From the NCBI GenBank assembly GCA_016188575.1, contig JACPHN010000046.1, forward strand, positions 1-55,412: a DNA stretch of 55,412 nt, given 5' to 3'. Below the pieces are notes generated by a model. It saw only the letters and a list, made by a program, of their open reading frames with translations. It ran no database searches and was not told where the DNA came from. This DNA is from Candidatus Schekmanbacteria bacterium. Its GTDB lineage: Bacteria > CSSED10-310 > JACPHN01. Position numbers and translations under genes: made by a program. Of the stretch, positions 23,990-48,304 are shown piece after piece; position 1 is the first letter of the stretch; each line of letters opens with the position of its first letter.

Positions 23990-24068
23990 CCACCGCCGGT
24001 TCGACTGCAAGCTGCGCGGAATGCACATCACGAGCCCCTCTACCTCAGCTCCCCCTTGCGGGGGTAGG
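23990..24068 (+). repeat. Dispersed intergenic repeat, copy B
   Basis: Opens CCACCGCCGGTTCGACTGCA, continues AGCTGCGCGGAATGCACATC and ends in the hairpin CTCCCCC-TTGC-GGGGGTAG. It lies between tRNA-Leu and the PAS kinase gene, in the same orientation as copies A, C and D. Confidence 0.7.
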
Positions 24069-24248
24069 ACGAATCCCCGCTCTGTGATCTCTGTCCCAAT
24101 CACACCCCTCCCCTCTTGCCCGGGCAGGGACGGAGGGGGGGCCAAATCGCGTCGGCGCCGAGCAGGCGGTGCCTTCAGCGGGAACCGCGGCTTGAAAATG
24201 CGATCCGTTGCTGTCACGTTATCGGTTCAGGTAGGTTGCACCGGCGGC

Positions 24249-25550
24249 ATGCAGGGCACGACTTTCGAGATGAGCGCAGACTGGTCATCCACGGCGAATG
24301 CTGGTCCCAATCACACGGAGATCCAGGTGCCATCGGGTCAGAGTCGCTTTTCGGACTTCGAGACGGGGCGGAGCGGCCTCCGCTCAACCCCACCTGGCCG
24401 CGCGGATGAGGCGCTGCGGGCGAGCGAGGAGCGCTTCCGCGCACTGGTCGAGCACAGCCACGATGCGGTGACCTTGCTGAAGGCGGACGGAACCGTGCTT
24501 TATGACTCTCCCGCGGTGACGCGCGTTCTCGGCTACACTCCCACGGAACGGATCGGCTGCAAGGTATTCGACTTCGTGCACCCAGAGGAGCGCGCGGCAA
24601 TGGCGCGGGGCTTTGCCGATTTCGCGATGCGCGCGGGTGCCGTCGCGTCGTCTGAGGGGCGCTTCGTCCACAAGGATGGCTCCACCCGTTGGATCGAGGG
24701 CGTACGCTCCAACCTGCTGCACGAGGCTGCCATCGGCGCCGTGGTCGTGAATTATCGGGACGTCACCGAGCGCAAGCGGGCCGAGGAGGAGCGGGTCAAG
24801 CTCGAAGACCAGTTGCGGCAAGCCGTGAAGATGGAGTCCGTCGGTCGGTTGGCCGGCGGTATCGCCCACGACTTCAACAATATGCTGGGAGTGATCCTCG
24901 GCCACACCGAGATCGCGCTGAGCCGCATCACTGCGACCGAGCCGCTCCACGTCCACCTGCAGCAGATTCAGAAGGCCGCGCAACGTTCCGCCGAGCTGAC
25001 CCGCCAGCTTCTCGCCTTTGCTCGCAAGCAGGCCATCGCCCCCAGCGTGGTCAACCTGAACGAGGCCATCGTGGGAACGCTGAGAATGCTCCAGAGACTA
25101 ATCGGCGAGCATATCCGGCTCAGGTGGCACCCCGCGGCGAATTTGTGGCCGGTCAGGGTAGACCGCTCGCAGATCGACCAGATCCTGGCGAACCTGTGCC
25201 TCAATGCGCGCGACGCCATCGCCCACGCGGGTCAGGTCGTCATCGAGACGGCAAACGTCACGCTTGACCACGAGGTCCACGGCGATCATGCCGGCTTCGC
25301 GCGGGGGGAGTTTGTGCGGCTCGCCGTCAGCGATGACGGGAGCGGCATGGAAAAGGAAACGCTGGCGCACATCTTCGAACCGTTCTTCACTACCAAGGGC
25401 ATCGGCGAAGGGACCGGCCTTGGCCTGGCGACCGTCTACGGAGCCGTGAAGCAGAACAATGGCTTCATCGACGTGCTGAGCGAGCCGGGCGCGGGGACGA
25501 CCTTCCGTATTTTTCTGCCGCGACACCTTGCCGGGGATCGTGACCGCTGA
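24249..25550 (+). CDS. PAS-domain sensor histidine kinase
   Basis: About 433 residues. After a poorly conserved N-terminus, a PAS domain ('RFRALVEHSHDAVTLLKADG' to 'GAVVVNYRDVTERKRAEEER', roughly 60-180) feeds a HisKA domain with phospho-accepting His in 'GGIAHDFNNMLGVILGHTE' (about 207), then HATPase with 'QILANLCLNARDAI' (N box), 'DDGSGM' (G1) and 'GEGTGLGLATVYG' (G2). No membrane segment and no receiver are present, so a separate regulator must exist elsewhere. The start is uncertain: ATG codons at 24198, 24249 and 24270 all lack strong ribosome sites, and the upstream part of the frame overlaps repeat copy B. The last is plausible too. Confidence 0.85.
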   Translation: MQGTTFEMSADWSSTANAGPNHTEIQVPSGQSRFSDFETGRSGLRSTPPGRADEALRASEERFRALVEHSHDAVTLLKADGTVLYDSPAVTRVLGYTPTERIGCKVFDFVHPEERAAMARGFADFAMRAGAVASSEGRFVHKDGSTRWIEGVRSNLLHEAAIGAVVVNYRDVTERKRAEEERVKLEDQLRQAVKMESVGRLAGGIAHDFNNMLGVILGHTEIALSRITATEPLHVHLQQIQKAAQRSAELTRQLLAFARKQAIAPSVVNLNEAIVGTLRMLQRLIGEHIRLRWHPAANLWPVRVDRSQIDQILANLCLNARDAIAHAGQVVIETANVTLDHEVHGDHAGFARGEFVRLAVSDDGSGMEKETLAHIFEPFFTTKGIGEGTGLGLATVYGAVKQNNGFIDVLSEPGAGTTFRIFLPRHLAGDRDR

Positions 25551-25630: not shown

Positions 25631-28600
25631 TCATCGGTTGTCGCGCGCTCCAGGTAGCTCGCCATGAACCAGTAACCCGCCTGCCGCGAAGGTCATCTGG
25701 GCGGCCTCGAGCGCGGCAATCGAGGCGTTGATCGCCGCCTGCCGGGCGGCGTCAGAGTGGTGTGCCGCCGCGCTCTTCGCGGCGTCCAGGACCACGCCCG
25801 CGGTACGGCCCGCGGCGAGCTGCACGTGACCGAGCTCGCACAGGCAAAGCACGGCGGCGAGGAGGTCACCGTGTGCGAAGTTCCAGCCGGCCGCCTCCCG
25901 CAGCGCTGCCGCGAAGGTGTCAAGCGGTGCCCCAATCCGCCGTTCGAGCGCACACTGGTGCGGCAGGAGCATGGTTTCGAGCTGGCGCGCCCCGGTGCTT
26001 CGGTGCACCTGCATGGCCTGGTCAAACAGGCGCCTCGCCTCGTCCACCGTCCCTCGCTCGGCCAGCATCATTGCCAAGGAGCCGATGACGGCGGCCTCTC
26101 CGGAGCCATCCCCGATCGCCGCCCGCATTCGGCGCGCTCCTTCCAGCAGGTTCCGCGCGGCCGGCAGATCACCCAGCGACCTCTGGATCTCCGCAAGCTG
26201 CACCAGCGCTGTCGCCTGACCGGGGAGGTCGCCGATCTGCCGCCGGATCGCCAGCGCGCGCTCCCCGACCGCCAGCGCCTCCGCAGGCCGGTGCATCATG
26301 TTATTCATCATCGCCATCGATCCGAGCAAGTGCGCTTCTGCCTTTTTGTCCTCGAATTCGCGGTGAATTGTCAACGCCTCGGCGGCGATCTCGAGCGCGC
26401 GCGCACTCTCGCCCTGGTACCAATGGATCGCCACGAGATTGGACAGCACGCTCGCCACGAGCTGCCGGTTGTCGATGGCGCGCGCCCGTTCCAACGCGTG
26501 GCGCTGGATGTTGCCGGCCTGCCTGATTCTCCCCTGCGCGAACCGCGCGCCCGCGAGATTGCCCAGGGTGCGCACCTCGAGCCCAGGGTCGCCGATCCGT
26601 CGCAACAGCGTGAGCGCCTTGCATCCCGCACGCCAGGCCGCATCCTGCTGGCCGAGGCGCGACAGCACGAGGCTCCGTCCGCTCAGGGCCGCCCCGAGCG
26701 CCGCAATGTCACCGGCGGCGGTCGCCTCCGTAGCAGCGGCCCGAAGTTGTTCCAGCGCCTCCCGGAGCCGCCCAGTCCAGCGCAACACGCGATCCGCATA
26801 TTCGATGCGCACCAGCGGCGCTCCGGGAGGCACGGCCAGCGCCAGATCGAGGTACGCGCGATAGAGCGCTTCGGCATCCTCGAAGGCGTAGCGCGCCGTG
26901 GCCGTGCGCGCGCCGGCGAGGTAGTGGTGCCGCGCCTTTTCCGGATGGCCCGCGCGCTCCCAATGATGGCCGAGCTGGCCACCGAGCTCGGCGACGCGCT
27001 CGGGGAAGGCGCTCTCGATGGCGACGGCTACCAACCCGTGAAGCTCGGGGAGCCCGCGGCCGGGCAGCCTCGCGAGGATGGCCTCGCGGATCTTGTCATG
27101 TACGAAACGCACCTCGCCAGGTTCGACCGGCTCCAGAACGTCACGGGTCACCAGCACACCCAGCCCCTCGAAGAACGTCGCTTCGGGCAAGCCAGCGGCG
27201 CTCGCGAGGACCGCGACCGGATTGACCCGGCCGGCGACCGCCGCGATTTCGCTGAGCCGCGCTGCGGTCGCATCCAGTGGCGCGAGGCGCTTGCACACCA
27301 GGTCGTGCACCGTGTCGGGTTCCGGCAGGCGCTCGTAGTCGTCCACAGCGAGCTGCCAGCGCCCGTCCTTGCCGCGTGCGAGCACGCCCTCGGTAACCGC
27401 CATCCGCAGGTACTCCGCCACGAAGAATGGGTTTCCCTCCGCGTGGCGCCAAACGTATCGCATGAACGCCGCGGGCGGATCGGCCATCGCCAGCATGTCG
27501 CAGACCATGCGCAACACGTCGCTCTCCGTGAGCCTACCGAGGTCCACGAGCACTACCTCCCCACGCCTCGCCAGGCGAATGAGCGTCTCCGTGGCCTCCT
27601 CGGTGCGATAGGCGCACAACAGAATCAGCGCGGTTTCGGCCATGACGGAGCTCTCGACTGCGTGGCCGAGCCATCCGAGTGTGAGCTCGTCGGCCCACTG
27701 CAAATCGTCGAGCGTCACGAGCAGGACCCCTGTCGAAGCCGCAGTCGCAAGGACCTCGTCGAGTGCCGAGAAGAGCCGAAGTCGAGCTGCTGCCGGGGGG
27801 AGCTCGACAGCGTCTGGATAGCGGTTGGCGCCCGGCACCTCGCGGAGAGAGGGCTCGTAGGCCGCAAGCAGGCTCAGGCGGGCACCAAAGAGGCGATCCG
27901 TCTCGCCTGCGCCGCATTCCCGGCAGCGATCTCCGAGCCATCGCAGCGGCTTCAGCAGCGCTTGTAGCGGCGGCTGATGCGACCGCTCGTCACCATCTGA
28001 CCGGGCCACCGGCGGCAAACATTCACCGCTGACGACGGCAATGTCGCGACTCGCCGCCAGGCGCGCGGCCTCCAACAGAAATCGGGTCTTCCCAAGGCCG
28101 CTCTCGCCGGCCACGAAGATCGTCTTCCCCACCATCTCGAAGGCATGCTGCAGCGCCCCGTCGGCCACCGCCATGACCTCGCCGCGGCCGGCGAAAGACG
28201 GCCGGTAATGGTAGGGACGAGGCGCCGGGCTATCGGCAGGCCAGAGAGCCTCCGCGCCAAGCTCTCGGAGCACCGCAGCGGCGTCGTCGGCATAGCCGAT
28301 GCGCTCGCCTGGGGCCTTGGCGGGCAGGCGCGCGACGAGCTGCTCGAGCGCCGCCGGCACCCCGTCCACGCGACTTCCAAGTGGAGCGGGCGCTTCGGCC
28401 AGGTGACCGTGCAGTATCGCCATCGGCTCGCTGGAGGCGAAGGGTGGCGCGCCGGCGAGCGCCTCGTACAGCATGCAGCCGAGGGCGTACAGATCGGCGC
28501 GCGCGTCGACGAGCTCGCCCGCGATTTGCTCGGGAGACATGTACGCCAGGGTGCCGCCGGAAAAGACGCCATCGACGGTGAGCTCGCGGCCGACTCCTCC

Positions 28601-29257
28601 GGCGAAGCTCGCGGACAGGCCGAAGTCGACGAGGATGGGCCTGCCTGAGGTGTCGACGAGGATGTTATCGGGCTTGAGGTCCCGGTGGACGATGCCTTCG
28701 CCGTGAATGTAGCGCAGCGTCAGGCAGAGGCGGTGAAAAATGGGCAAGAGCAGCTCGAGAAAGCACCGCGGTAGAAACGCGCGCGGCATCGAGGCGTGGG
28801 GCTGGCCGACATCGCCCACGACCGGCGGCGGCGCTCCATGCGCCACCGGCCGTGCCGGGACGGCGGCGAGGACCGTCGATGTGGCCGAAGTCACCGGCCC
28901 GTGAGAGGCGTGCGGCGGCGCGGCGCGACTCGCCCACAGGCCGGCGATCGTCGCCCCGAGTGGCCGGCCTGCGATCAAGTCCATGGCGAACCATGGAATG
29001 CCGCCAGCGCTCCCCGTGTCGCGGATGCGCACCACGCCCGGATGGCGCAGACCGCTCAGCGAAGCAATCTCTCGCCGTATCGTCGGAAGCAGCTCCGCGG
29101 TCGCTGACTTGAGAAACTTGAGCGCGACGAGGCTGCCGCTGGCCGCGTGACGTGCGCGAAACACTTGCGCCATGCCACCCTGTCCCAGCAAGACCTCGAT
29201 GACGTACGGGCCGACGCGGAATCCGCGCGCCGCCTCCCTGCCGAGCGTTCGCGTCAC
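25631..29257 (-). CDS. Ser/Thr kinase - P-loop ATPase - TPR regulator (PknK-like)
   Basis: 1208 residues, three parts. Kinase (about 15-335): G-loop 'LLGQGGMAQVF', Lys in 'LVALKFLKS', 'IVHRDLKPDNIL', 'VDFGLSASF' and 'GTLAYMSPEQIAG'. An Ala/Pro-rich insert of about 60 residues sits after the hinge. ATPase (about 375-640): Walker A 'VAGESGLGKTRFLLEAA', Walker B-like 'VLLVTLDDLQWADELTL'. The rest (about 720-1190) is tetratricopeptide-type helical repeats, e.g. 'LRRIGDPGLEVRTLGNLAGA'. The plan matches mycobacterial PknK and related kinase/AAA/TPR regulators of Myxococcota. No helix-turn-helix or membrane span is seen at the C-terminus, so it is a cytosolic kinase with a STAND-type switch. Ligand and substrates are unknown. 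It is monocistronic. Confidence 0.9.
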   Translation of the reverse strand: MTRTLGREAARGFRVGPYVIEVLLGQGGMAQVFRARHAASGSLVALKFLKSATAELLPTIRREIASLSGLRHPGVVRIRDTGSAGGIPWFAMDLIAGRPLGATIAGLWASRAAPPHASHGPVTSATSTVLAAVPARPVAHGAPPPVVGDVGQPHASMPRAFLPRCFLELLLPIFHRLCLTLRYIHGEGIVHRDLKPDNILVDTSGRPILVDFGLSASFAGGVGRELTVDGVFSGGTLAYMSPEQIAGELVDARADLYALGCMLYEALAGAPPFASSEPMAILHGHLAEAPAPLGSRVDGVPAALEQLVARLPAKAPGERIGYADDAAAVLRELGAEALWPADSPAPRPYHYRPSFAGRGEVMAVADGALQHAFEMVGKTIFVAGESGLGKTRFLLEAARLAASRDIAVVSGECLPPVARSDGDERSHQPPLQALLKPLRWLGDRCRECGAGETDRLFGARLSLLAAYEPSLREVPGANRYPDAVELPPAAARLRLFSALDEVLATAASTGVLLVTLDDLQWADELTLGWLGHAVESSVMAETALILLCAYRTEEATETLIRLARRGEVVLVDLGRLTESDVLRMVCDMLAMADPPAAFMRYVWRHAEGNPFFVAEYLRMAVTEGVLARGKDGRWQLAVDDYERLPEPDTVHDLVCKRLAPLDATAARLSEIAAVAGRVNPVAVLASAAGLPEATFFEGLGVLVTRDVLEPVEPGEVRFVHDKIREAILARLPGRGLPELHGLVAVAIESAFPERVAELGGQLGHHWERAGHPEKARHHYLAGARTATARYAFEDAEALYRAYLDLALAVPPGAPLVRIEYADRVLRWTGRLREALEQLRAAATEATAAGDIAALGAALSGRSLVLSRLGQQDAAWRAGCKALTLLRRIGDPGLEVRTLGNLAGARFAQGRIRQAGNIQRHALERARAIDNRQLVASVLSNLVAIHWYQGESARALEIAAEALTIHREFEDKKAEAHLLGSMAMMNNMMHRPAEALAVGERALAIRRQIGDLPGQATALVQLAEIQRSLGDLPAARNLLEGARRMRAAIGDGSGEAAVIGSLAMMLAERGTVDEARRLFDQAMQVHRSTGARQLETMLLPHQCALERRIGAPLDTFAAALREAAGWNFAHGDLLAAVLCLCELGHVQLAAGRTAGVVLDAAKSAAAHHSDAARQAAINASIAALEAAQMTFAAGGLLVHGELPGARDNR

Positions 29258-34859: not shown

Positions 34860-35687
34860 ATGGCAGTTACCCGCGCACGAAGGAGACGCTCGATGTGGAT
34901 CGCCGGACTCGTTTTTCTGTTGGCTGGCGCCGGCCTGGGGATCGCCTTTTTCACTCAGAAGAGCAAGCTCGGGCTCATGGAGGGGACCGAGACGTCTACG
35001 GCTGCCGAGCTTCAACAGATGGCCGCTTCGGTGGGCAGCGAGATCGGCAAGGGTGCGTTCAGCCAGATGACGGAAATCAAGGGGACCGTGGTATGCGACG
35101 CCCCGCTGACCTCGGAGCTCGCGCAGGTTCCCTGCGTGCACTACGAGAACCGGGTGATTCGCGAGTACGACGAAACCTATTGGGATACGGACGCCAACGG
35201 CAACCGGATGCAGCGCACCCGGCGAGGCAGCGATACGGTTGCGCACAACGCCCGGCACGTGTTTTTCGCCGTCGACGACGGGACGGGGCGGATCACGGTG
35301 GACGCCGCGGGCGCCAAGCTGGTGACGGAGAAGGCGCTGTCGACATTCGAGCCTGGCGAGGCGCACGGCGGCGTGTTGCGGCTCGGCTCATTCAGTCTGA
35401 GCCTCGGCGGCCTCAGCTTCGGCAGCGGCCGGCGCACCCTGGGCTATCGCTACGAGGAAGATGTGATCCCGGTTGGCAGGCCGGTCTACGTGCTCGGCGA
35501 GGCCACGGATCGAAACGGCAGCCTGCGCATCTGTCGGCCTGCTGATTCAGGTAAGATGATCGTTAGCGTCAAGAGTGAAGAAGAGCTCGTGCGCGGCGCG
35601 CAGCGGACGATGACCTGGCTCATGATCAGCGCGATTGCGAGCGCGGCGCTGGGAGCGGTGCTGCTGGTGGTCGGGCTGCTCACGTAG
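34860..35687 (+). CDS. GIDE-domain (E3-ligase-like) membrane protein
   Basis: 275 residues. An N-terminal span 'MWIAGLVFLLAGAGLGIAFF' (about 12-31), an extracytoplasmic or cytoplasmic core and a C-terminal span pair 'WLMISAIASAALGAVLLVVG'. The core has 'IKGTVVCDAPLTSELAQVPC' and 'VHYENRVIREYDETYWDTD', then 'FFAVDDGTGRITVDAAGAKL', with 'FGSGRRTLGYRYEEDVIPVG' and 'RPVYVLGEATDRNG'. This is the pattern of the GIDE domain (PF12483), found in mitochondrial MULAN E3 ligases and in bacteria, where no RING finger accompanies it and the function is unknown. No RING is seen here either. Its last bases overlap the end of the convergent kinase gene by 8 bases. Confidence 0.78.
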   Translation: MAVTRARRRRSMWIAGLVFLLAGAGLGIAFFTQKSKLGLMEGTETSTAAELQQMAASVGSEIGKGAFSQMTEIKGTVVCDAPLTSELAQVPCVHYENRVIREYDETYWDTDANGNRMQRTRRGSDTVAHNARHVFFAVDDGTGRITVDAAGAKLVTEKALSTFEPGEAHGGVLRLGSFSLSLGGLSFGSGRRTLGYRYEEDVIPVGRPVYVLGEATDRNGSLRICRPADSGKMIVSVKSEEELVRGAQRTMTWLMISAIASAALGAVLLVVGLLT

Positions 35688-37239
35688 CTCGTTGGATGCG
35701 GCCGAGCACCTGCCGGGCCAGGAGCGCGATCTGCGCGTCGGGGTCGGCCAACGCCGCCTGCAGGCCGACAAGCTCCAAGTCGGGCGGATAGATCCGGAAT
35801 GCGACCAGGGCGCGCAACGCGCGCAGTCGGGCGACGCCCTTGGCCTGGCCGAGGAGGTGGGCGATGGCGGCGGCGCCGCGCGGATCACCAATGCTCGCGA
35901 GCGGCTCGATCGCGAGCGCGGCCTGGGGGGAAGATGATTCGGCCAGGGCCACGAGGCGCGGGACCGCGGCGCTCGAGGCGAGCTTTCCGAGTGCCCTGGC
36001 GGCCTCGCCGCACAGCAATGGATCGTCGAGCGCGGACTCCAGAAACGGCAGGGCGTCGGCGCTCCCGAGCGCGCCGAGCACCGGAATCGCGGCGAGGCGG
36101 GCATCGCCGCCTGCGGCAGTCAGAAACGCCAGGAGCTCCGGGAGCACGCGCTCGGCGGCAAGACTCTCCAGCGCGCGCGCTGCCTGCAGGCGACGCGTCC
36201 CAACGGCCGATTGCAACCCGGCAAGGAGCTCCTGCACGCGCCCATCGGCACCGCCAGCGACGCCTGCCGCCGCGGCCGGTTCCCGGCTGGGCAGGCAAAC
36301 CGCGTCGCTGACGGTCAGCGACGTGCGCGGCCGCGCCTCCCCGCCCGCCGGTTCCTTCCGTGGCAGCCGGCGCAACAGGTCCTGAAACCGCCGGGCGTCC
36401 AGCCGCAGCAAGTCCTCCCGGAGCTGCTCGGCACTGGCATAACGCCGATCCAGGCGCACCTCCAGACAGCGCAGAATGACGGCCTCGAGGTCCGCGGGGA
36501 AGGCCGGGATCAGCTCCGACGGCGGGTGAAATCGGCCGACGGGGCGGCTGCCGGTGAAGGCCGCATACATCACGGCACCGAGGCTGTACAGATCCGTTCG
36601 ATGGTCGATGTGCTTGGCGTCCATTTGCTGCTCGGGGCTCATGTAAGAAAGCGTGCCCATCGACTGGCCGGACCGCGTCAGCTCCTCACCGTGCTCGAAC
36701 GTCAGCCGGCTGATGCCGAAGTCGGTGAGGTACACGAACGGCCCGTAGGGGGGTGCGGGCGCCCGGCCGATCAGCAGGTTGGACGGCTTGATGTCGCGAT
36801 GGATGACGCCGTAGTGGTGCGCGTAGGAGAGCGCCTCACACGTCTGCGCGAAAACCTCCATGAGCCCCGCCGGGCGGGCGGCGCGACTGGCCATATACCG
36901 GCTCAGGTCGCCGTCCTCCACGTAGGGAAGCACCAGATACGGGAATCCCTGGACGACACCCTCCGCGAGCAACGGGAGGATGTGCGGGTGGTTCAGTTGC
37001 TTCATGATTCTGGCTTCGCGCCGAAACCGGAGGAGGAGATCGGCGGCGGCGAGCGCTCCAGGCGTCAGCAGCTTGATGACCACCTGCTTGCCCAAGGCCG
37101 CGGCGCGGGCGAGGTAAATCTCCGACATGCCGCCGACCGCCAGCAGCCGCGTGACCTCGAAGGGCCCCAGGGCCAGTGGCGGGGTAAGCGCCGACTGGTG
37201 TGCTGTTGCCGCGTCGCCACCCAGCGGGCTGCGATTCAA
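35680..37239 (-). CDS. Ser/Thr protein kinase with C-terminal HEAT-like repeats
   Basis: 519 residues from a TTG at 37237-37239 that overlaps the aroA stop (TTGA), with GAGGAG five bases upstream. Kinase domain (about 20-300): 'LLAVGGMSEIYLARAAALGK' (G-loop, with the first Gly replaced by Ala), Lys in 'QVVIKLL', 'GVIHRDIKPSNLL', 'LTDFGISRL' and 'GTLSYMSPEQQMD'. After a linker (about 325-360), seven or so short HEAT/PBS-type repeats run to the end: 'ARLAAIPVLGALGSADALPF', 'LGKLASSAAVPRLVALAESS'. There is no membrane span, so it is a cytosolic kinase with a protein-binding tail. It is last in a four-gene operon with aroA, which invites regulation of aromatic synthesis by phosphorylation (inference). 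Confidence 0.87.
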   Translation of the reverse strand: MNRSPLGGDAATAHQSALTPPLALGPFEVTRLLAVGGMSEIYLARAAALGKQVVIKLLTPGALAAADLLLRFRREARIMKQLNHPHILPLLAEGVVQGFPYLVLPYVEDGDLSRYMASRAARPAGLMEVFAQTCEALSYAHHYGVIHRDIKPSNLLIGRAPAPPYGPFVYLTDFGISRLTFEHGEELTRSGQSMGTLSYMSPEQQMDAKHIDHRTDLYSLGAVMYAAFTGSRPVGRFHPPSELIPAFPADLEAVILRCLEVRLDRRYASAEQLREDLLRLDARRFQDLLRRLPRKEPAGGEARPRTSLTVSDAVCLPSREPAAAAGVAGGADGRVQELLAGLQSAVGTRRLQAARALESLAAERVLPELLAFLTAAGGDARLAAIPVLGALGSADALPFLESALDDPLLCGEAARALGKLASSAAVPRLVALAESSSPQAALAIEPLASIGDPRGAAAIAHLLGQAKGVARLRALRALVAFRIYPPDLELVGLQAALADPDAQIALLARQVLGRIQRAT

Positions 37240-38660
37240 CGCAGCTCCTCCAGCACCGAAAAGAAGCCGGGAAACGACACGTCGACGGCGCCAGAGTCGA
37301 CAATCGCCGTCTCGCCCTCCGCGACGAGGCCGGCAATGGCCATGCACATCGCGATGCGGTGGTCGCCAAAACTGTTGACTGCCGCCCCGGTGAGCTGCTG
37401 CGGTCCGCTGATCTCGAAGCCATCCTCGAGCTGCGTCACCTCGGCGCCGAGCGCCTCGAGCCCCGCGCTGATCGTGGCGATGCGGTCGCTCTCCTTGTAG
37501 CGAAGCTCCCGGGCACCGCGTGCCACGGTCTTGCCGTGCGCTTGCGTCGCCAGCACCGCCAGCAGTGGAATCTCGTCGATCATCGCCGCGCACTCGGCGG
37601 GCCCGAGCGCGATGCCGGCCAGGTCGGCGGCGGTAACCGCGATCGTGCCCGTGGGCTCCGAAGAGGGTCCCGTCGCCTGGTCGCAGAGCGGAGCGCTCGC
37701 GCTTTCCGGCGGCCTCGAGGTGGCGTCAGGGGTCAGAAGCACGCGCGCCCCCATCGCCGCCAGGGCGTCCGCAAACGCCGTCCGGGTGGGGTTGAGGCCG
37801 ACGCCTGCAATCTCGATCGCTGAACCCGGGACGATCGCGGCCGCCGCCATGAGGAACGCCGCCGAGGAGAAGTCCCCGGGCACCCGGATGTCAACAGGGT
37901 GCAGATGGGCCCCGGGGTAGGCGACGACCAGCGAGCCGGACCGCTCGATGCGGGCGCCCATGGGCACCAGAGCGCGCTCGGTGTGATCCCGACAGGACGC
38001 CGTCTCGGTGAGCTCGACCGGCGCGGGGGCGCACAGACCGGCCAGCAGGAGCGCGGACTTGACCTGCGCGCTGAACACCTGGTAGGGAGCGGGCAGCGGT
38101 CGAGTAAGCGGGCCGCGAATCGCCAGAGGAGGCGTGCCTCCGCCACTGGCCATCCAGGTTGCACCCATGGCCCCCAGGGGGTCGAGAACGCGGCGCATCG
38201 GCCGGCGCCGCAGCGAGGCGTCACCGGTCAAGAATGCGGCGACCGGCAGCGCCGCGAGAATTCCCAGACCGAGTCGCATCGTGGTACCCGAATTCCCGCA
38301 ATCGAGAAGATCAGCAACGGGCCCCAGGTTCCACGAGGCGTTGGCGCTGCCGGAGGCGCCGGTCTCCCGCGCTCCCTGGCCAGTGACGACGACGTCCGCG
38401 GTGGCGATCCCGGTTTCCCGGATCTCCACCGCCGCCCCCAGAGCACGCACGAATGCGACCGAGCTCAACGTATCGGCGGCCACCAGGAAATTGGCTATGC
38501 GGCTCGGCCCCTGCGCCAGCGCACCAAATAACACGGCGCGATGCGAGATGGACTTGTCCGGGGGTACCGCGAGCCGCGCTCGCACGGGTGCCCGCGCGCA
38601 GCGGACGCGCCGGGCGGCTGCAGCAGCGAGATCGGGAAACGAGTTGTCGTTGGTGGTCAT
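37236..38660 (-). CDS. aroA: 3-phosphoshikimate 1-carboxyvinyltransferase (EPSP synthase)
   Basis: 474 residues, about 45 longer than usual. AroA makes EPSP from shikimate-3-phosphate and PEP in the cytoplasm. 'VPPDKSISHRAVLFGALAQG' (PEP/S3P Lys and Arg region), 'DCGNSGTTMRLGLGILAALP' (S3P binding), 'GDASLRRRPMRRVLDPLGAM', 'SAQVKSALLLAGLCA' and 'RYKESDRIATISAGLEALGA' are all intact. An insert of about 35 residues ('TSRPPESASAPLCDQATGPS') sits before the conserved 'IDEIPLLAVLATQA'. ATG 38658-38660; the AroF-like gene ends 10 bases upstream. It is coupled to the kinase gene downstream by a TTGA overlap. Confidence 0.95.
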   Translation of the reverse strand: MTTNDNSFPDLAAAAARRVRCARAPVRARLAVPPDKSISHRAVLFGALAQGPSRIANFLVAADTLSSVAFVRALGAAVEIRETGIATADVVVTGQGARETGASGSANASWNLGPVADLLDCGNSGTTMRLGLGILAALPVAAFLTGDASLRRRPMRRVLDPLGAMGATWMASGGGTPPLAIRGPLTRPLPAPYQVFSAQVKSALLLAGLCAPAPVELTETASCRDHTERALVPMGARIERSGSLVVAYPGAHLHPVDIRVPGDFSSAAFLMAAAAIVPGSAIEIAGVGLNPTRTAFADALAAMGARVLLTPDATSRPPESASAPLCDQATGPSSEPTGTIAVTAADLAGIALGPAECAAMIDEIPLLAVLATQAHGKTVARGARELRYKESDRIATISAGLEALGAEVTQLEDGFEISGPQQLTGAAVNSFGDHRIAMCMAIAGLVAEGETAIVDSGAVDVSFPGFFSVLEELR

Positions 38661-38670
38661 GGCAGGCCGC

Positions 38671-39687
38671 CTATGCCGAAGATTCGTTGGTGATCGCGGC
38701 AATCCGATGAAGTTGTCCCACCAGCCGGTAGAGCTCTGCCGGGATAAGTGATACAGCGCCGTCCATGGCCGCGCGGTCGGGATCGGGGTGCACTTCCAGG
38801 ACGACACCCTGCGCACCGGCGGCAACCGCGGCCCGGGCAAGCACGGGGACGCGATCTCGCCGCCCCGCGGACGGACCCACGTCGACCAAGATCGGCAGAT
38901 GGGTCAGGGCTCTCGCCGCGGGGAGGCACGAGATGTCGAGCGCGAGTCGGTCGGGGCCGCCGTAGCCCCGCACGCCGGCCTCGCACAGAATGACTTTTTC
39001 GTTGCCCGCCGCCAGCACGTTCTCGGCAGCCAGCAGCCACTCTTCGATCGTGCTCCCGGGATGCCGCCGCAGAATGACGGGTCGGCCGGACTTGCCAAGC
39101 GTCTCGAGCAGCGAGAAGCTCTGCATGGCGCGCGCCCCTACCTCCACGGCATCCGCGACGTCGGCCACCGCCTCGACGTGCTCGGGCGTCGCGACCTCGG
39201 CGATCAGCGCCAAACCGTGAGCGCTCGCGGCGGCGCGCAGCATCTGCAACCCCGCTTGACCCGGCCCGCGAAGCGCGTACGGCGACGGTCCCGAGCGAAA
39301 AACATCGGCGCGAATCAGGCGCATGCCGGCCGCGCTCAGTGCTTCCGCGCAGGCGCGGAGCTGACGCCCATCCTCCACGAAGCCCGGTCCAGCCACCAGT
39401 GTCAGCTCCGGACCACCTACTGGCACACCACAGATCTCCACCACCGTATCTTCCGGATGACATTCCCTGCCGGCGAGGTGGTAGGGTGAGGTGACCCGTA
39501 CCACGCGCGCGACCCCAGGCATGACGGCGATTGCATCCGGTTCCATGATGCGCGCATCGCCGATGGCGCCCAGGATGACGTGAGATTTCCCGGTCGAGCG
39601 GTGGATGTCGAAGCCGTGGCGCGTGAGGCGCTCGATGACACCCTGGATCTGCCCCTCGGCGGCCGCCTCTTGCATGACAATCAGCAC
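38671..39687 (-). CDS. DAHP-synthase-like protein lacking key catalytic residues
   Basis: 338 residues aligning end to end with type I-beta DAHP synthase, including the N-terminal ferredoxin-like regulatory domain (1-80) and the TIM barrel. Hallmarks are altered: AGPCSVE is 'AGPGFVE' (metal Cys to Gly102), RGGAYKPR is 'RADVFRSG' (PEP Lys to Arg131, Arg lost), GARN is 'GARA', LLKRG is 'ILRRH', CERG is 'CEAG', and DPSHSGGRRD is 'DVGPSAGRRD' (metal His to Pro272). Glu298 and Asp309 ('LEVHP', 'MDGAVSL') are kept. My numbering coincides with the Thermotoga enzyme as I recall it. It is unlikely to make DAHP by the known mechanism. It sits between a histidine kinase (7-base overlap) and aroA. Confidence 0.8.
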   Translation of the reverse strand: MLIVMQEAAAEGQIQGVIERLTRHGFDIHRSTGKSHVILGAIGDARIMEPDAIAVMPGVARVVRVTSPYHLAGRECHPEDTVVEICGVPVGGPELTLVAGPGFVEDGRQLRACAEALSAAGMRLIRADVFRSGPSPYALRGPGQAGLQMLRAAASAHGLALIAEVATPEHVEAVADVADAVEVGARAMQSFSLLETLGKSGRPVILRRHPGSTIEEWLLAAENVLAAGNEKVILCEAGVRGYGGPDRLALDISCLPAARALTHLPILVDVGPSAGRRDRVPVLARAAVAAGAQGVVLEVHPDPDRAAMDGAVSLIPAELYRLVGQLHRIAAITNESSA

Positions 39688-40499
39688 GGCGGACCTCCGT
39701 CAGACCGCCGCGGCAAGTGCACCACGAGCTCGGTCCCCCGCGGGTGTCGCTCGCGAGCGGCGATCGAGCCGCAGTAGGTCGAGACGACGTCGGCCGCTAC
39801 GGCGAGCCCCAGCCCCAGGTGCGGGCTCTTCTTGGTCGTGAAAAAAGGATAGAAGACGCGCTCGCGTCCGATTCGCGGCAGGCCGGCACCGCTGTCGCGC
39901 ACGTACAGCACGGCATCGCTGCCCTCGACCCGGGTTTCGAGCTCGACCCAGCGGCTTTCCGGCACTACCGTGGCCACTGCCTCGACAGCGTTGTCGACGA
40001 GCCGGCGGATCAGGTCGTGGATGGCTCCTTCATCGGCCTCGATCTCGACGGGGCGGGGATCCAGCCGGATCTCCATGGGAACGAGCACATCGGGCCGGGC
40101 CTCCACCTCTCGCGCGACCCGACGGACAGCGTCGTTCAGCGAGAAAACCGTGTTGGCATAGGTCTTGTCCGCGGTGTACTCCGAAAGGCCCCGAATAATC
40201 CCGACGATGCGCTCTGCGCTGCGCCCAAGGCCGTCGGCGATGATGGGGAGCGTCTCCAGCACGAAGTCGAGGCGTTCTCCCGCGGCACTTGTGGTGCCTG
40301 CAAGCAGACGTTCGCGCAGGAGCACCTCCACCGCCGGCAGGAAACGGGCAAGCAGGCGGACATTTCCCAGCAGCGCCGTGGCCGGATTGTTGAGCTCGTG
40401 CCGCAACCCCGAGCTGAGCCGCTCCAGCTTCGCGCGCTCGTCGTCCGCGGTGGCACGCGCCGCGTACACCGCCGGGTCGTCGTCATCTGTCGCTGTCAT
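39681..40499 (-). CDS. Soluble histidine kinase, first gene of the aro operon
   Basis: 272 residues from the ATG at 40497-40499, preceded by GAGGAG. No sensor domain or membrane span is present. It starts with a short acidic segment and goes straight to the phospho-acceptor helix 'LSSGLRHELNNPATALLGN' (His near 29), a dimerisation helix with 'ERIVGIIRGLSEYTADKTYA', and an HATPase domain: 'IRRLVDNAVEAVATV' (N box), 'DSGAGLPRIGRERVFYPFFT' (G1/F box) and 'LGLGLAVAADVVSTYCG' (G2). It must take its signal through a partner. It overlaps the AroF-like gene by 7 bases, and no receiver protein is encoded in the operon. Confidence 0.85.
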   Translation of the reverse strand: MTATDDDDPAVYAARATADDERAKLERLSSGLRHELNNPATALLGNVRLLARFLPAVEVLLRERLLAGTTSAAGERLDFVLETLPIIADGLGRSAERIVGIIRGLSEYTADKTYANTVFSLNDAVRRVAREVEARPDVLVPMEIRLDPRPVEIEADEGAIHDLIRRLVDNAVEAVATVVPESRWVELETRVEGSDAVLYVRDSGAGLPRIGRERVFYPFFTTKKSPHLGLGLAVAADVVSTYCGSIAARERHPRGTELVVHLPRRSDGGPPC

Positions 40500-42669: not shown

Positions 42670-43275
42670 ATGACTGAAGCGGGCGACCCCTTGCCGGCCG
42701 TTCCGGATGGACACGCCAGCATCTTCGCGAGCGGCAACTGGCTCCGCCCAAGCAGCAGTCATTCCTGGTGCGTTGGGTACGCGAGCTCCTGGGTTTCGCG
42801 CGGGAGCACCGCGGATACACCTTCGAGCAGACGCTGGATGCCTCCCTGGCCGCACTGGGCGATCGGGCCGGCACGGAGCCCTGGCAGATCCGCCAGGCCG
42901 CGGACGCGGTTTGCACCTACCGCTATCAATACCGTGCGGCGGGGGAGCCCGCGCAGCCCAGCGCTCCCAGGTTGACTGACGGAGCTGCACTGGCCGACGA
43001 CCAAAGCCTGCTCCGGCGCCTGCGCGAAGTGATCCGGCTGCGGCACTATGCGTGGGCCACCGAGAAGCATGTCGGGATTGGTCGCGCCGTTTCTTGGAGG
43101 ATCGCCAGCAGACCGGCCTGAGCGGCCGGCCGACCACAGCCGACGTCAAGGCCTTTCTCACCCGCCTGGCGATGGTGCAGCGGGTAAGTGCTTCGACCCA
43201 GAACCAGGCGTTCAGCGCCTTGCTGCTCCTCTTCCGCGAGGTGCTGCGGACGGACTTGGCGGAGCAGGTTTCCCG
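42670..43275 (+). pseudogene. Integron-type integrase (IntI-like), N-terminal relic
   Basis: An ATG with GGGAGGG upstream opens 'MTEAGDPLPAVPDG'. One frame over it continues 'WTRQHLRERQLAPPKQQSFL' and 'VRWVRELLGFAREHRG', 'EPWQIRQAADAVCTYRYQYR', then 'LLRRLREVIRLRHYAWATEK'. After a second shift near 43070 it reads 'DWSRRFLED', 'TADVKAFLTRLAM' and 'SASTQNQAFSALLLLFREVL'. The last parts match the SAM-like core-binding domain of IntI/XerC-type tyrosine recombinases, and 'STQNQALSALLFLYREVL' is almost the family consensus. The catalytic domain with Arg-His-Arg-Tyr is absent: the relic runs into the promoter of the next gene. It is divergent from the attC-bearing cassettes, as intI is in integrons. 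Confidence 0.78.
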
Positions 43276-43280
43276 CTCAA

Positions 43281-43309
43281 TTGACAGCAGCCGAGCCCGT
43301 AACTATGCT
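43281..43309 (+). promoter_or_regulatory. Promoter of the propeller-kinase gene, near-leaderless
   Basis: TTGACA (43281-43286), a 17-base spacer and TATGCT (43304-43309). The ATG at 43316 starts six bases after the -10, where transcription itself should begin, and no ribosome site is seen. It lies inside the end of the integrase relic. Confidence 0.6.
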
Positions 43310-43315
43310 GCCGCA

Positions 43316-46300
43316 ATGCTTCAGCGTAGGATCGCTTCCCTCCTGCTCCCGGCGATGGTGTCGCTCGTCCTCGCCGGGCAACCGTCCGTGGCGCCGGTAT
43401 GCGCCGATGGGAAGCCAGCACAGTCCGAAGATCTGGCGCCCCTCGCGCGACTCCAGAGTTGGGCCCCGACCGTGTCCGAGCGCCTCACCCGAGCCGTGCG
43501 CGAGGCCGAGGGCGCCGACCTACAGGCCAGAGCCGCTCACCTCCAGCAAGTCCTCGAATCCACGACACTCTCGGCGGGCGAACGCGCCGCCGGGTTGTGG
43601 ACGCTGGCGCGATGGCATCGGCGACTGGGCGAGCTGGAAGCGGCGGTGCTGGCCTACAGGGCCGCCTTTGCCGCGATTTCCGCGGCCTCGGGGAGCCGGG
43701 AGGTGCCGGCGCGCAATGATTTCGCTCTGGCACTGCTGACCGAGACTATCGGCGTCCTTCATAGCGAGCTCGGCCGTGTCGACGACAGCATCACGCTCAT
43801 CCCGGAGGCCATGTTGCTGGCCCCGCGGAGCGGCTCGGAGACGTGGCAGGAGCGTCTGCGAGCGTGGCTGCATCAGTCTCACGAGCTCTTCGCGAGAGAA
43901 CGCGTCACCAGGCTCCGCGAACGCTTCCGCTTCTCGACCTTCACAACGACCGACGGATTGTGCGATCCCAACATCATGCGGCTCATGCTTGACCGCGCGG
44001 CGGGATTGTGGATCGGCAGCAGTCAGGGTCTGTGTCGCTTTGACGGCGTGGCGTTCACGCCAGTGCCGGTGGGCGCACAAGGGGACAGGGCGACGGTGTG
44101 GGCGCTCGCGGAAGACGCGTCGGGGAGAATCTGGGTAGGGCTGAGCTCGGGACTGCGCGTCGTCGACCGCGGGCGCGTCGTCCGAGCTCCCGGCACCGAG
44201 GCGCTCGCGAGCGCCGCAGTCCGCGCCCTGGCCGTTGCCCCTGACGGCGCGGTGTGGATCGGGAGCAAGGGCGGCATTGTCCAGGTGTACCGAGACGGGA
44301 ATCTGCAAACGCTGGCGGCTGCAGGACACGGGGAGATCGAGGCAATCCACGCCCAGGCCGACGGCGTCGTCTGGCTCGTGGCGGCGGAGGGACTCGGGCG
44401 CTGGAGTGCCGATTCCCCGCTCGAGTGGTGGTCTCCTCCTGCCTGTCCGGCGCTGCCAGGCGCGACGGCAACAGACAACAAGCTTGCGGCGGCCACGAGC
44501 GGGCCGGAAGAATCCGGCGAGCTGTGGCTGGGCACGAGCTGCGGGGTGTGGCGATTCCGCGCCGGGGCGTGGACAAGGCCGCTGTGGGCCGAGCAGCTAC
44601 CGGAAGGAGCGTCCCTCAGCGCGCTGACAGTCGATCGCGCCGGGAACCTGTGGATCGGCTACGAGGCTGCGGGGCTCTTCATGGTCGAGGGAACGCGAGT
44701 GACGCCGCTTGGCGAGGCCGAGGGCCTCGGCCGTAACAACGTGCAGTCCGTGGTCGACGATGGCCGGGGGCGCCTCTGGATCGGCACGTTCGGCGGGGGG
44801 CTGAGCCGCTATGAGCCGTCACGCGCCCGCATTTTCCGCCGCACCAGCGGGCTACCGCACGACGTCACCTATGCGGTTCGCCTCGATCGCTCGGGGCAGT
44901 TGTGGGTGGGCACATGGGGCGGCGGAGTAGCGCGCTTCGACGGCCGCGCCTTTCGCTACTATGGTCAGGAGCAGGGTCTGGCCGATAACCTCGTCTGCCG
45001 CATTCTCGAGGACCACCTCGGAAACATCTGGTTTGGGACATTCGCCGGGGGCGCCAGCCGCTTTGACGGCCGCCGCTGGGAGCATATTGACAGCAAGCGC
45101 GGGATCACGGACAACTTCGTGGCGGCGATTCATGAGGACAGGTCCGGCCGTTTCTGGTTCGGCACGTGGCGGGGGGGAGTTTGCCGCCTTGACGAGCCCG
45201 CGGGCAAGGTGGCCTGCTTTCAGCAGGAAGCGGGGCTCCTGGCCGAGCAAGTCCTGGGGATTGCCGAAGCAGAGGATCGCCGCCTGTTCTTCGCCACCGA
45301 TCACGGGATCTTCACCCTGGAGCCGACACCCGGCGCGCGCTTCACCCGACTTGGTCACGATGACGGGGTGCCGGCGGAGAGTTTCCTCGGGCTTCTTGTG
45401 GACACCGGGGGCGCGGGCGGTCAAGCCGACGACGTGTGGATGGGGAGCACGAGCAATCGCCTGTATCGCTATCGGCGCACGGCCAGGTCGGGCGAGCGCC
45501 TGGCAAGCTGGGGAAAGTCGGAGGGGATGCGTGCGCACGAGATCACTGAGATCCAGAGAGGCCCGCGCGATCTGCTTTGGGTAGCATCAGACGCGGGCGT
45601 CGGGATTTTCGATGGCGAAACGTGGTCCTGGTTGGACGAGGAAGATGGCCTCGCTCACCGGCAGACGTGGTCGCTAGCCTTCGCGCGGGCGCGGGAGCAG
45701 GCGCGGCCGGCGGCCGACGTCGCCTGGATCGCGACGTCCGGGGGACTCACCCGCATCGAGCTGCCACCGGACACCCCAAAGACCCGCATCGCTCTGGCGC
45801 CAGCGGGGGAGGAAAGCCTCACGCCGGTGACGATCAGCGATGCGGAGATCACGCTCGCGGTCGAGGCCCGCACTCCGTGGGTTCATCCCAGGCGGGACAG
45901 CTTCTGGTTTTCCGCGCGCGTCGACAGCGGTCCGTGGGGCGCGTGGCAGGCAGAGCCGAATCTGGCGCTGCCACTGCTCGCGCGCGGGCTCCACACTGTC
46001 GAGGTCCGCGCGAAGAACCGATACCTGGCGGTGGACGCCTCACCGGCGCGCATCGTGGTGGACGTCCAGCCCGCCAGGCCATACTGGCCGTGGCTCGCTG
46101 TCGTCGCGGTCGCACTGGCACTCGCGCGGCAGTATCGAGAAACGCTTCGCTTCGCGCTCGAACGGGCGCTGGTGGCGGTCCTGCGGGGGCGCCGGTTCGC
46201 GCCGGTCCCGGAGGGGCGGTTCTGGACCCGAGCGCTTCCGGCCGGTGATGCGCCGATCCTGATTCGTGGCGACGTCACCGAGACGCTGCACCGCGAGCTC

Positions 46301-48304
46301 GCGCGGTCGGCGACGGAAGGCGCGAGCCTGCTGCTGTACGGAGAGCTCGGGTGCGGCAAGAGCACGCTCCTGCGACTGCTTGCCGCGGGCCGGCTACACC
46401 CACCCGGGATGATGGTGCAACCACTGTGTGTCGACCTGTCCGCAGATCCTACAGCGGCCGCGATCCTGCAGGAGGTCCTGGAGCGCCTTTCTGGGGCTCT
46501 GGAGGAGGCGCCTCCGGAGCCCGGCGCCGCGGCCACTGCGGACGCCGAAAGCTCGTCGGCGGACTCGAGCGCGCTCCAGAGGCTCTTCATGGCCCGCTTC
46601 CAGGAGCTGCGCGGACGGCTGCCGGCCCCCGGCGGGTCGCGCGCGGTGATTCTGCTCGATGCCGCCGAGCGGTCGACGGCACTGATGGGGCCATTGCCCG
46701 GCAAGCGGTCGATCGGCGACATCGCGCCTTTCGTGGCCTGCCTGCGCGCGCTGCTCGCGGCCGGAGTGTCGCTCGTCTTCGCGTTCGACCGGCACCGGGA
46801 TGCGCTGCGGGCGGACTTCGCGGAGCTCTATTCGATCTCGACGCCGGTGCGGGTCGGATTCGTCGCGGAGCCTGAGGCTACAGACTTCTTGCTGCGCGCA
46901 ACCCATCGACATCTGGTCTGGGAAGCGAAGGCGATGCGCCTGGCCGTACAGTTGAGCGGCGGTCATGCCGGACTGCTGCAGGAGCTCGGCCAGCGAATCG
47001 CGCGCGCTCACAATCGCCTGGCGACCCCGCTGGTCCGCTATCGACAGCTCCAGAGCATCGCGGACGACCTCGCAGAAGCGCCGCCACCCCGCCTCGAGGA
47101 GCTCGGCGCCAGCCTGGCGAACCGCGAACGCGTGCTCGTGTCGCTCATCGCCGCGGCCTTGCGGCGCGCGTCGCCTGCGGCGGCCTGGGAGCCGACCGCG
47201 GCGATCCCGCTGCGAGACGTCCAGGCGGAAGCGGAAAAACACCATGTGCCGTTGCTCTATGAGGAGATCCGCAAGGTCACCCTGAGCCTGACGCAGCGAG
47301 GCTTGCTGTTCGCCGGCGCTGGCGGAGAGTCCGTCGGCGTCCGCGTCGGGCTCCTGCTCAAGTGGATGCAAACCGCCTGTCCGCCGGAACGGACGATCCA
47401 CGAGCAAAACCGCTACATCGGCAAGTACGAGCTCATGGGAGTACTTGGCAAGGGGGGAATGGGCACCGTGTATCGGGCTCGGGACCTGACGACGCTGAGC
47501 GAGGTCGCGCTCAAGGTCATGCCGCCGGAGTTCGGGGACGACCCCACCCGGCGGGCGCGCTTTATCCGCGAGGGGCGGATCGGCGTCAACCTCAGCCATC
47601 GCAACATCGTCGGCATCCGCGAGCGGGGCGAGCACGACGGGACCTACTACCTGGCCATGGAGCTCCTCGACGGGGTGACGCTGGAGGCCCTCGCGGGGTG
47701 GTATGCGCGCGAACGCAGGCGGCCCGGCACGGAGTTGCTCGCCATCGTCGGCTGCGAAGTCGCGCGCGCGTTGGCGGCCATCCACGGCCGGGGGGTCATC
47801 CATCGCGACGTGAAAGGCGAGAACGTCATGGTGACGAGTCTCGGCGAGGTGAAGCTGATGGACTTCGGGCTGGCGATCGCCAGCGACCTGGGCAAGGTTA
47901 CGACCTCAGGGGTGGCCGTGGGGACGATCGCCACGATGTCGCCGGAGCAGGCGCGAGGGGAAGAGGTTGACGGCCGCAGCGACCTGTACTCGCTGGGCGT
48001 CGTGCTGTTTCAGCTCGCAACCGGGCAACACCCGCTCGGGGATGAATCCGGCATGAAGCTGCTGCTCGCCGTGCTGCGGGCACCGGCCCGGCCGCTCGGG
48101 GAGCTGCGGGAGGATCTTCCCCAGGCGTTCACCGCGGTGATCGACCGGATGCTTTCGAAGGACAGGGAGCAGCGCCCGGCGTCGGCTGCGGCGGTGCTCC
48201 AGGAGCTCACGGCGTTTTCCCCGCAGTCGCCCGAGGGTCCGCGCCGGGAGCTTGTGGAGGCGACAGCGGCAATTGTCGCTCTGTCCGCCCGGCAGGACGG
48301 CTAG
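43316..48304 (+). CDS. Receptor kinase: periplasmic propeller, Y_Y_Y, membrane span, P-loop ATPase, Ser/Thr kinase
   Basis: 1662 residues. A signal peptide ('ASLLLPAMVSLVLAGQPSVA', about 6-25) and a helical, TPR-like region (to about 215) precede some ten two-component-regulator propeller repeats (about 220-790), such as 'LWIGTFGGGLSRYEPSRARI', 'LWVGTWGGGVARFDGRAFRY' and 'IWFGTFAGGASRFDGRRW'. A Y_Y_Y-like Ig domain (about 826-918, 'FWFSARVDSGPWGAWQAEP') and one span 'YWPWLAVVAVALALA' (about 921-937) follow. In the cytoplasm an ATPase has Walker A 'GELGCGKSTLLRLLAA' (about 1009) and B 'AVILLDAAERS'. The C-terminal kinase (about 1370-1640) has 'LGKGGMGTVYRA', 'VALKVM', 'VIHRDVKGENVM', 'MDFGLAI' and 'TMSPEQARG'. 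Propeller/Y_Y_Y sensors usually drive histidine kinases, so this Ser/Thr output is unusual. A longer frame upstream belongs to the integrase relic. Confidence 0.88.
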   Translation: MLQRRIASLLLPAMVSLVLAGQPSVAPVCADGKPAQSEDLAPLARLQSWAPTVSERLTRAVREAEGADLQARAAHLQQVLESTTLSAGERAAGLWTLARWHRRLGELEAAVLAYRAAFAAISAASGSREVPARNDFALALLTETIGVLHSELGRVDDSITLIPEAMLLAPRSGSETWQERLRAWLHQSHELFARERVTRLRERFRFSTFTTTDGLCDPNIMRLMLDRAAGLWIGSSQGLCRFDGVAFTPVPVGAQGDRATVWALAEDASGRIWVGLSSGLRVVDRGRVVRAPGTEALASAAVRALAVAPDGAVWIGSKGGIVQVYRDGNLQTLAAAGHGEIEAIHAQADGVVWLVAAEGLGRWSADSPLEWWSPPACPALPGATATDNKLAAATSGPEESGELWLGTSCGVWRFRAGAWTRPLWAEQLPEGASLSALTVDRAGNLWIGYEAAGLFMVEGTRVTPLGEAEGLGRNNVQSVVDDGRGRLWIGTFGGGLSRYEPSRARIFRRTSGLPHDVTYAVRLDRSGQLWVGTWGGGVARFDGRAFRYYGQEQGLADNLVCRILEDHLGNIWFGTFAGGASRFDGRRWEHIDSKRGITDNFVAAIHEDRSGRFWFGTWRGGVCRLDEPAGKVACFQQEAGLLAEQVLGIAEAEDRRLFFATDHGIFTLEPTPGARFTRLGHDDGVPAESFLGLLVDTGGAGGQADDVWMGSTSNRLYRYRRTARSGERLASWGKSEGMRAHEITEIQRGPRDLLWVASDAGVGIFDGETWSWLDEEDGLAHRQTWSLAFARAREQARPAADVAWIATSGGLTRIELPPDTPKTRIALAPAGEESLTPVTISDAEITLAVEARTPWVHPRRDSFWFSARVDSGPWGAWQAEPNLALPLLARGLHTVEVRAKNRYLAVDASPARIVVDVQPARPYWPWLAVVAVALALARQYRETLRFALERALVAVLRGRRFAPVPEGRFWTRALPAGDAPILIRGDVTETLHRELARSATEGASLLLYGELGCGKSTLLRLLAAGRLHPPGMMVQPLCVDLSADPTAAAILQEVLERLSGALEEAPPEPGAAATADAESSSADSSALQRLFMARFQELRGRLPAPGGSRAVILLDAAERSTALMGPLPGKRSIGDIAPFVACLRALLAAGVSLVFAFDRHRDALRADFAELYSISTPVRVGFVAEPEATDFLLRATHRHLVWEAKAMRLAVQLSGGHAGLLQELGQRIARAHNRLATPLVRYRQLQSIADDLAEAPPPRLEELGASLANRERVLVSLIAAALRRASPAAAWEPTAAIPLRDVQAEAEKHHVPLLYEEIRKVTLSLTQRGLLFAGAGGESVGVRVGLLLKWMQTACPPERTIHEQNRYIGKYELMGVLGKGGMGTVYRARDLTTLSEVALKVMPPEFGDDPTRRARFIREGRIGVNLSHRNIVGIRERGEHDGTYYLAMELLDGVTLEALAGWYARERRRPGTELLAIVGCEVARALAAIHGRGVIHRDVKGENVMVTSLGEVKLMDFGLAIASDLGKVTTSGVAVGTIATMSPEQARGEEVDGRSDLYSLGVVLFQLATGQHPLGDESGMKLLLAVLRAPARPLGELREDLPQAFTAVIDRMLSKDREQRPASAAAVLQELTAFSPQSPEGPRRELVEATAAIVALSARQDG

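Follow-up and report, generated by a model that had tools for sequence, protein, structure and literature searches.

The AroF-like protein encoded just upstream of aroA in the window (the whole 55,412-nucleotide stretch of DNA analysed here) is, judging from its residues, a genuine pseudoenzyme: because seven of 12 metal- and substrate-binding residues have been lost, this paralogue of type I-β DAHP synthase (DAHPS) should not make DAHP. By analogy with HisZ, we tentatively suggest that it acts as a non-catalytic regulatory subunit of the active DAHPS fusion encoded elsewhere in the genome, supplying aromatic amino-acid (Tyr) feedback, a reading to which we give slightly less than even weight. 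Control of the shikimate pathway lies mainly at DAHP synthase, through fused or added regulatory domains; if the suggestion holds, a stand-alone dead DAHPS with an intact sensing domain would be a new mode of shikimate regulation, comparable to HisZ and easily tested.

The histidine kinase (HK), AroF-like, AroA and Ser/Thr kinase (STK) genes form a single string on the minus strand (35680–40499; Table 1). HK and AroF-like overlap by 7 bp, a gap of 10 bp separates AroF-like from AroA, and AroA and STK overlap by 4 bp (TTGA); on re-reading, the coordinates, strand and spacing that the earlier note had given for the four genes matched exactly. GC3 lies between 0.78 and 0.84 across all four frames, and purine-rich sequences resembling ribosome sites are found 5′ of HK, AroF-like and STK. 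Since no internal promoter or terminator signals within the string rose above those of shuffled sequence, and since the next gene downstream of STK (34860–35687, encoding a protein with a GIDE domain of the E3 ubiquitin ligase type) is convergent, the four genes are likely carried on one transcript; the overlaps suggest translational coupling. Misassembly and contamination were ruled out by GC content and tetranucleotide use, both of which are even throughout the window and, for the most part, closer to the genome's other contigs than to foreign loci.

Table 1 Features of the four-gene string, with positions in the window.
Feature	Position	Strand	Basis
Sensorless histidine kinase (HK), 272 aa	39681..40499	-	H-box RHELNNP, N-box DNAVEA, G1 DSGAG, G2 GLGLA
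AroF-like protein, 338 aa, type I-β DAHP synthase paralogue predicted to be catalytically dead	38671..39687	-	Pfam, residues, AF2
N-terminal ferredoxin-like (FL) regulatory domain of AroF-like, aa 1-66, H29 and S31 kept	39490..39687	-	Family identity
Diverged (β/α)8 barrel of AroF-like, aa 92-321	38725..39414	-	C102G, K131R, P132S, R133G, T134P, K207R, R237A, H272P
AroA, EPSP synthase, intact, only copy in genome	37236..38660	-	TIGR01356, 45/45 columns
Ser/Thr protein kinase (STK), 519 aa, C-terminal HEAT repeats	35680..37239	-	TTG start overlaps aroA stop

AroF-like matches the Pfam families DAHP_snth_FXD (PF18152) and DAHP_synth_1 (PF00793), and it aligns to the DAHPS of Thermotoga maritima (T. 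maritima) without gaps over residues 1–309, so that a common residue numbering can be used. Metal, PEP and E4P residues have been listed for a type I-β enzyme (PMC6362186), and we scored 12 catalytic residues in T. maritima numbering (C102, H272, E298 and D309; R126, K131, A185, R186, K207 and R237; R133 and T134). Five are kept in AroF-like, the seven losses being the barrel substitutions of Table 1 other than P132S; among 142 relatives compared, 140 carry all 12 and two carry 11. Of the divalent metal ligands, Cys102 and His272 are lost (C102G, H272P) and E298 and D309 are kept, while the PEP/E4P set of R126, K131, R133, T134, R186, K207 and R237 is reduced to R126 and R186. AroF-like preserves 63 of the 91 columns conserved at ≥90%, compared with a median of 99% and a minimum of 82% in the other members, and its losses are concentrated around the active site, affecting 16 of 33 conserved columns no more than two residues from catalytic positions versus 12 of 58 elsewhere (Fisher p = 0.006). 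Barrel identity to the family is 0.42, compared with 0.60 between other members, and lies below that of all 135. The protein also falls narrowly short of two NCBIfam cut-offs (PRK08673, 330.8 versus 335 bits; TIGR01361, 262.0 versus 267.75 bits). An AlphaFold2 (AF2) model has a mean pLDDT of 91, with a mean of 55 in block 131–140 (the substrate loop), and its best PDB matches are the T. maritima DAHPS 1rzm and the chimeric DAH7PS 4grs; this fold is a weak test, however, because the underlying alignment was made of intact DAHPSs. A KDO8P-synthase-like identity was disfavoured, as the residues do not fit and a separate homologue of that kind is encoded on contig C87.

One may postulate that the barrel has left DAHP synthesis for some other anionic ligand, which it would bind or act on. 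R126 and R186 remain, the K131R and K207R swaps preserve positive charge, the metal ligands E298 and D309 are still in place, and further conserved positions (E164, S135, P136, Y137 and E236) persist. We nevertheless regard such neofunctionalisation as unlikely, given that the protein has lost R237 as well as its Cys and His metal ligands, that the substrate loop is ill-defined in the AF2 model and that no family with the residue pattern of AroF-like was found.

The FL domain of AroF-like is typical of the family: it ranks 49th of 135 in mean identity to the family, at 0.32, where the other members reach 0.33 among themselves, and drift is confined to the barrel. H29 and S31, which we take to be the Tyr contacts of the T. 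maritima DAHPS, are present in 78 of 137 family members, so their retention in AroF-like is weak evidence because it is common; the active fusion of the same genome has L and I at these positions. The earlier note had called AroF-like a DAHP-synthase-like pseudoenzyme and had cast it as a ligand sensor. The former description is upheld and strengthened by the retention of five of 12 catalytic residues, against 11 or 12 in the 142 relatives; the latter appears a reasonable role, since the pseudoenzyme still has its regulatory domain, with H29 and S31 in place.

In the family tree, AroF-like falls inside a clade of 16 FL-type DAHPSs (SH-aLRT 99), on a terminal branch of 1.71 that is nearly five times the median of 0.36 and so long that its exact place is unsure. 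Other members of this clade include a DAHPS encoded with TyrA (L036) and three encoded with both TyrA and AroA (L129, L156 and L157). As the clade thus contains DAHPSs from aro operons with TyrA and AroA, the adjacency of a DAHPS and AroA in the window is a matter of ordinary ancestry. A search of 386 genomes and a single scan of genome contigs brought up no close homologue of AroF-like; its relatives there and in the phylum of the genome G042 were only DAHPSs at ≤47% identity, and all of these distant relatives whose residues were checked are intact. In seven genomes of the same phylum, the best DAHPS matches are without an FL domain. One of these genomes, G002, encodes a divergent DAHPS (L167:5002-5850; branch 1.87) that carries R133I and H300E yet keeps 11 of 12 catalytic residues. 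A literature search of a partial collection found no paper that combines "DAHP synthase" with "pseudoenzyme".

AroA is intact by sequence: it matches EPSP_synthase in Pfam, passes TIGR01356 (372 versus 287 bits) and keeps all 45 conserved columns in a comparison of 28 AroAs. No second EPSP synthase was found in the genome, which spans 9.2 Mb. Contig C143 carries one further PF00275 match (252 bits), presumably MurA, which scores only 20 bits against AroA. A search of the 386 genomes for close AroA relatives at E ≤ 1e-95 returned only the gene itself, at a cut-off that is probably too strict for distant AroAs. The intact DAHPS of the genome lies on another contig and is a 640-aa DAHPS-prephenate dehydratase-ACT (DAHPS-PDT-ACT) fusion (L126:2528-4450; G000 C30), and aro genes are also found at scattered sites, with aroK-aroB on C227 and trpD-aroC on C249. 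Among the loci compared, the nearest full-length relative of the fusion is in G042 (47%), where it is encoded directly 5′ of an intact FL-DAHPS from the clade of AroF-like. From these sequences we infer an ancestor with both DAHPS isoforms, of which the second would have lost catalysis in the present lineage and now sits with aroA. No recognisable AroA was found in the seven same-phylum genomes. Six of them (G002–G007) have AroC, DAHPS and one PF00275 protein each, and the three PF00275 proteins tested in the phylum (L170, L171 and L173) are all MurA; a recognisable EPSP synthase thus seems to be missing in these sister lineages. In the seventh, G001, neither AroA nor AroC was found.

The long branch of AroF-like, together with its redundancy with the intact fusion, also raises the possibility of slow decay, in which a functionless duplicate is kept only through its place upstream of aroA in the transcript. 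We consider this rather improbable: the open frame is full-length and ungapped against the T. maritima DAHPS, the FL domain is family-typical, GC3 and start context are normal for the string, and the losses cluster near the active site when decay should have spread them evenly.

The two flanking kinases appear intact in translation. HK comprises a weakly matching HisKA domain and HATPase_c, with no sensor domain and with its H, N, G1 and G2 motifs preserved, and STK comprises Pkinase, with HRD and DFG in place, and HEAT. Such neighbours are unremarkable in a genome with 188 Pkinase (Ser/Thr-kinase) and 130 HATPase_c matches. With a gene number taken as about 7,500 (estimated and not counted), we estimate the probability that any one two-gene unit is preceded by an HK and followed by an STK at roughly 4 in 10,000, so that about one kinase-flanked unit would be expected among some 2,000 operons. 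HK and STK are therefore probably ordinary, co-transcribed neighbours of the aro genes. Elsewhere in the window, a Ser/Thr kinase with AAA and TPR regions (25631–29257) adjoins an oppositely oriented PAS histidine kinase (24021–25550), and kinase neighbours are thus common in this stretch. A 1750-aa open frame at 43052–48304, whose true start may be further downstream, contains, on visual inspection, repeats that resemble beta-propeller segments; it also has a stretch like a P-loop ATPase and carries a Ser/Thr kinase at its C terminus (match 47426–48193).

The order HK-DAHPS-AroA-STK was seen in no flanked DAHPS locus examined. It is therefore unique to this genome as far as seen, the outcome that the earlier note had named as refuting its proposal, but this uniqueness is weak evidence because the nearest genomes compared share only the phylum, with none of the same family or genus among them, and those same-phylum genomes, being without a recognisable AroA, cannot have the order. 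Of the earlier note's proposals on this point, the juxtaposition of kinases and aro genes is real, although not clearly above expectation given the kinase totals, and the claim of a role for the kinases in reading or setting aromatic status is unsupported in view of the same totals and of the order's absence from the loci examined. An aromatic-status signalling module, in which the pseudoenzyme would bind an aromatic amino acid and control HK and/or STK, or the kinases would modify AroA or the pseudoenzyme, fits the tight, possibly coupled overlaps, the HK that lacks its own sensor domain and the retained regulatory domain of AroF-like, but it is very unlikely when such neighbours are expected by chance and the arrangement recurs in none of the flanked loci.

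We return to the reading of AroF-like as a regulatory subunit, for which we infer co-transcription, co-assembly, Tyr binding and regulation. AroF-like would descend from the FL-domain (Tyr/Phe-feedback) type I-β DAHPSs that often head aro operons, and the dead copy would have been retained beside aroA with catalysis left to the DAHPS-PDT-ACT fusion elsewhere. It may co-assemble with this fusion, whose own FL domain is without H29 and S31, and its retained FL domain would then bring Tyr feedback to the complex; HK and STK would probably be no more than co-transcribed neighbours. The full-length open frame, the family-typical FL domain and the clustering of losses near catalytic sites favour this interpretation. 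It must be held cautiously, however, as the long terminal branch (1.71 versus 0.36) also fits decay, and as the active fusion has an ACT domain of its own and may need no extra regulator. A bolder version, in which AroF-like is a DAHPS "prozyme", a dead Tyr-sensing paralogue that assembles with the DAHPS-PDT fusion and possibly also relays aromatic status to the HK and STK of the same transcript, seems to us decidedly improbable.

Among known systems, the T. maritima type I-β DAHPS (PDB 1rzm/3pg9) shares with AroF-like its two-domain architecture, predicted fold and H29/S31; unlike that enzyme, AroF-like is without seven of 12 metal and substrate residues. The aroF-tyrA-aroA operons (for example L129 and L156) also place an FL-type DAHPS of the same 99-supported clade upstream of AroA, but there the DAHPS is intact and its neighbours are TyrA, AroE, AroC, AroK and AroB, whereas in the window TyrA and the other aro genes are absent and kinases flank the pair. 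In G042 (contig C56), the tandem of a DAHPS-PDT fusion and a stand-alone FL-DAHPS parallels the two DAHPS isoforms of the present genome; both genes are adjacent and intact in G042, whereas here the second appears dead and lies beside aroA, on a separate contig from the fusion. HisZ is a paralogue of HisRS and not of the enzyme that it regulates. It belongs to a different fold family and a different pathway from AroF-like, and the likeness is only in how the two would work: as the regulatory subunit of the short-form ATP phosphoribosyltransferase (PMC9734150), HisZ, itself non-catalytic, conveys amino-acid feedback to the enzyme that opens a biosynthetic pathway, which is the part that AroF-like would play for the DAHPS fusion.
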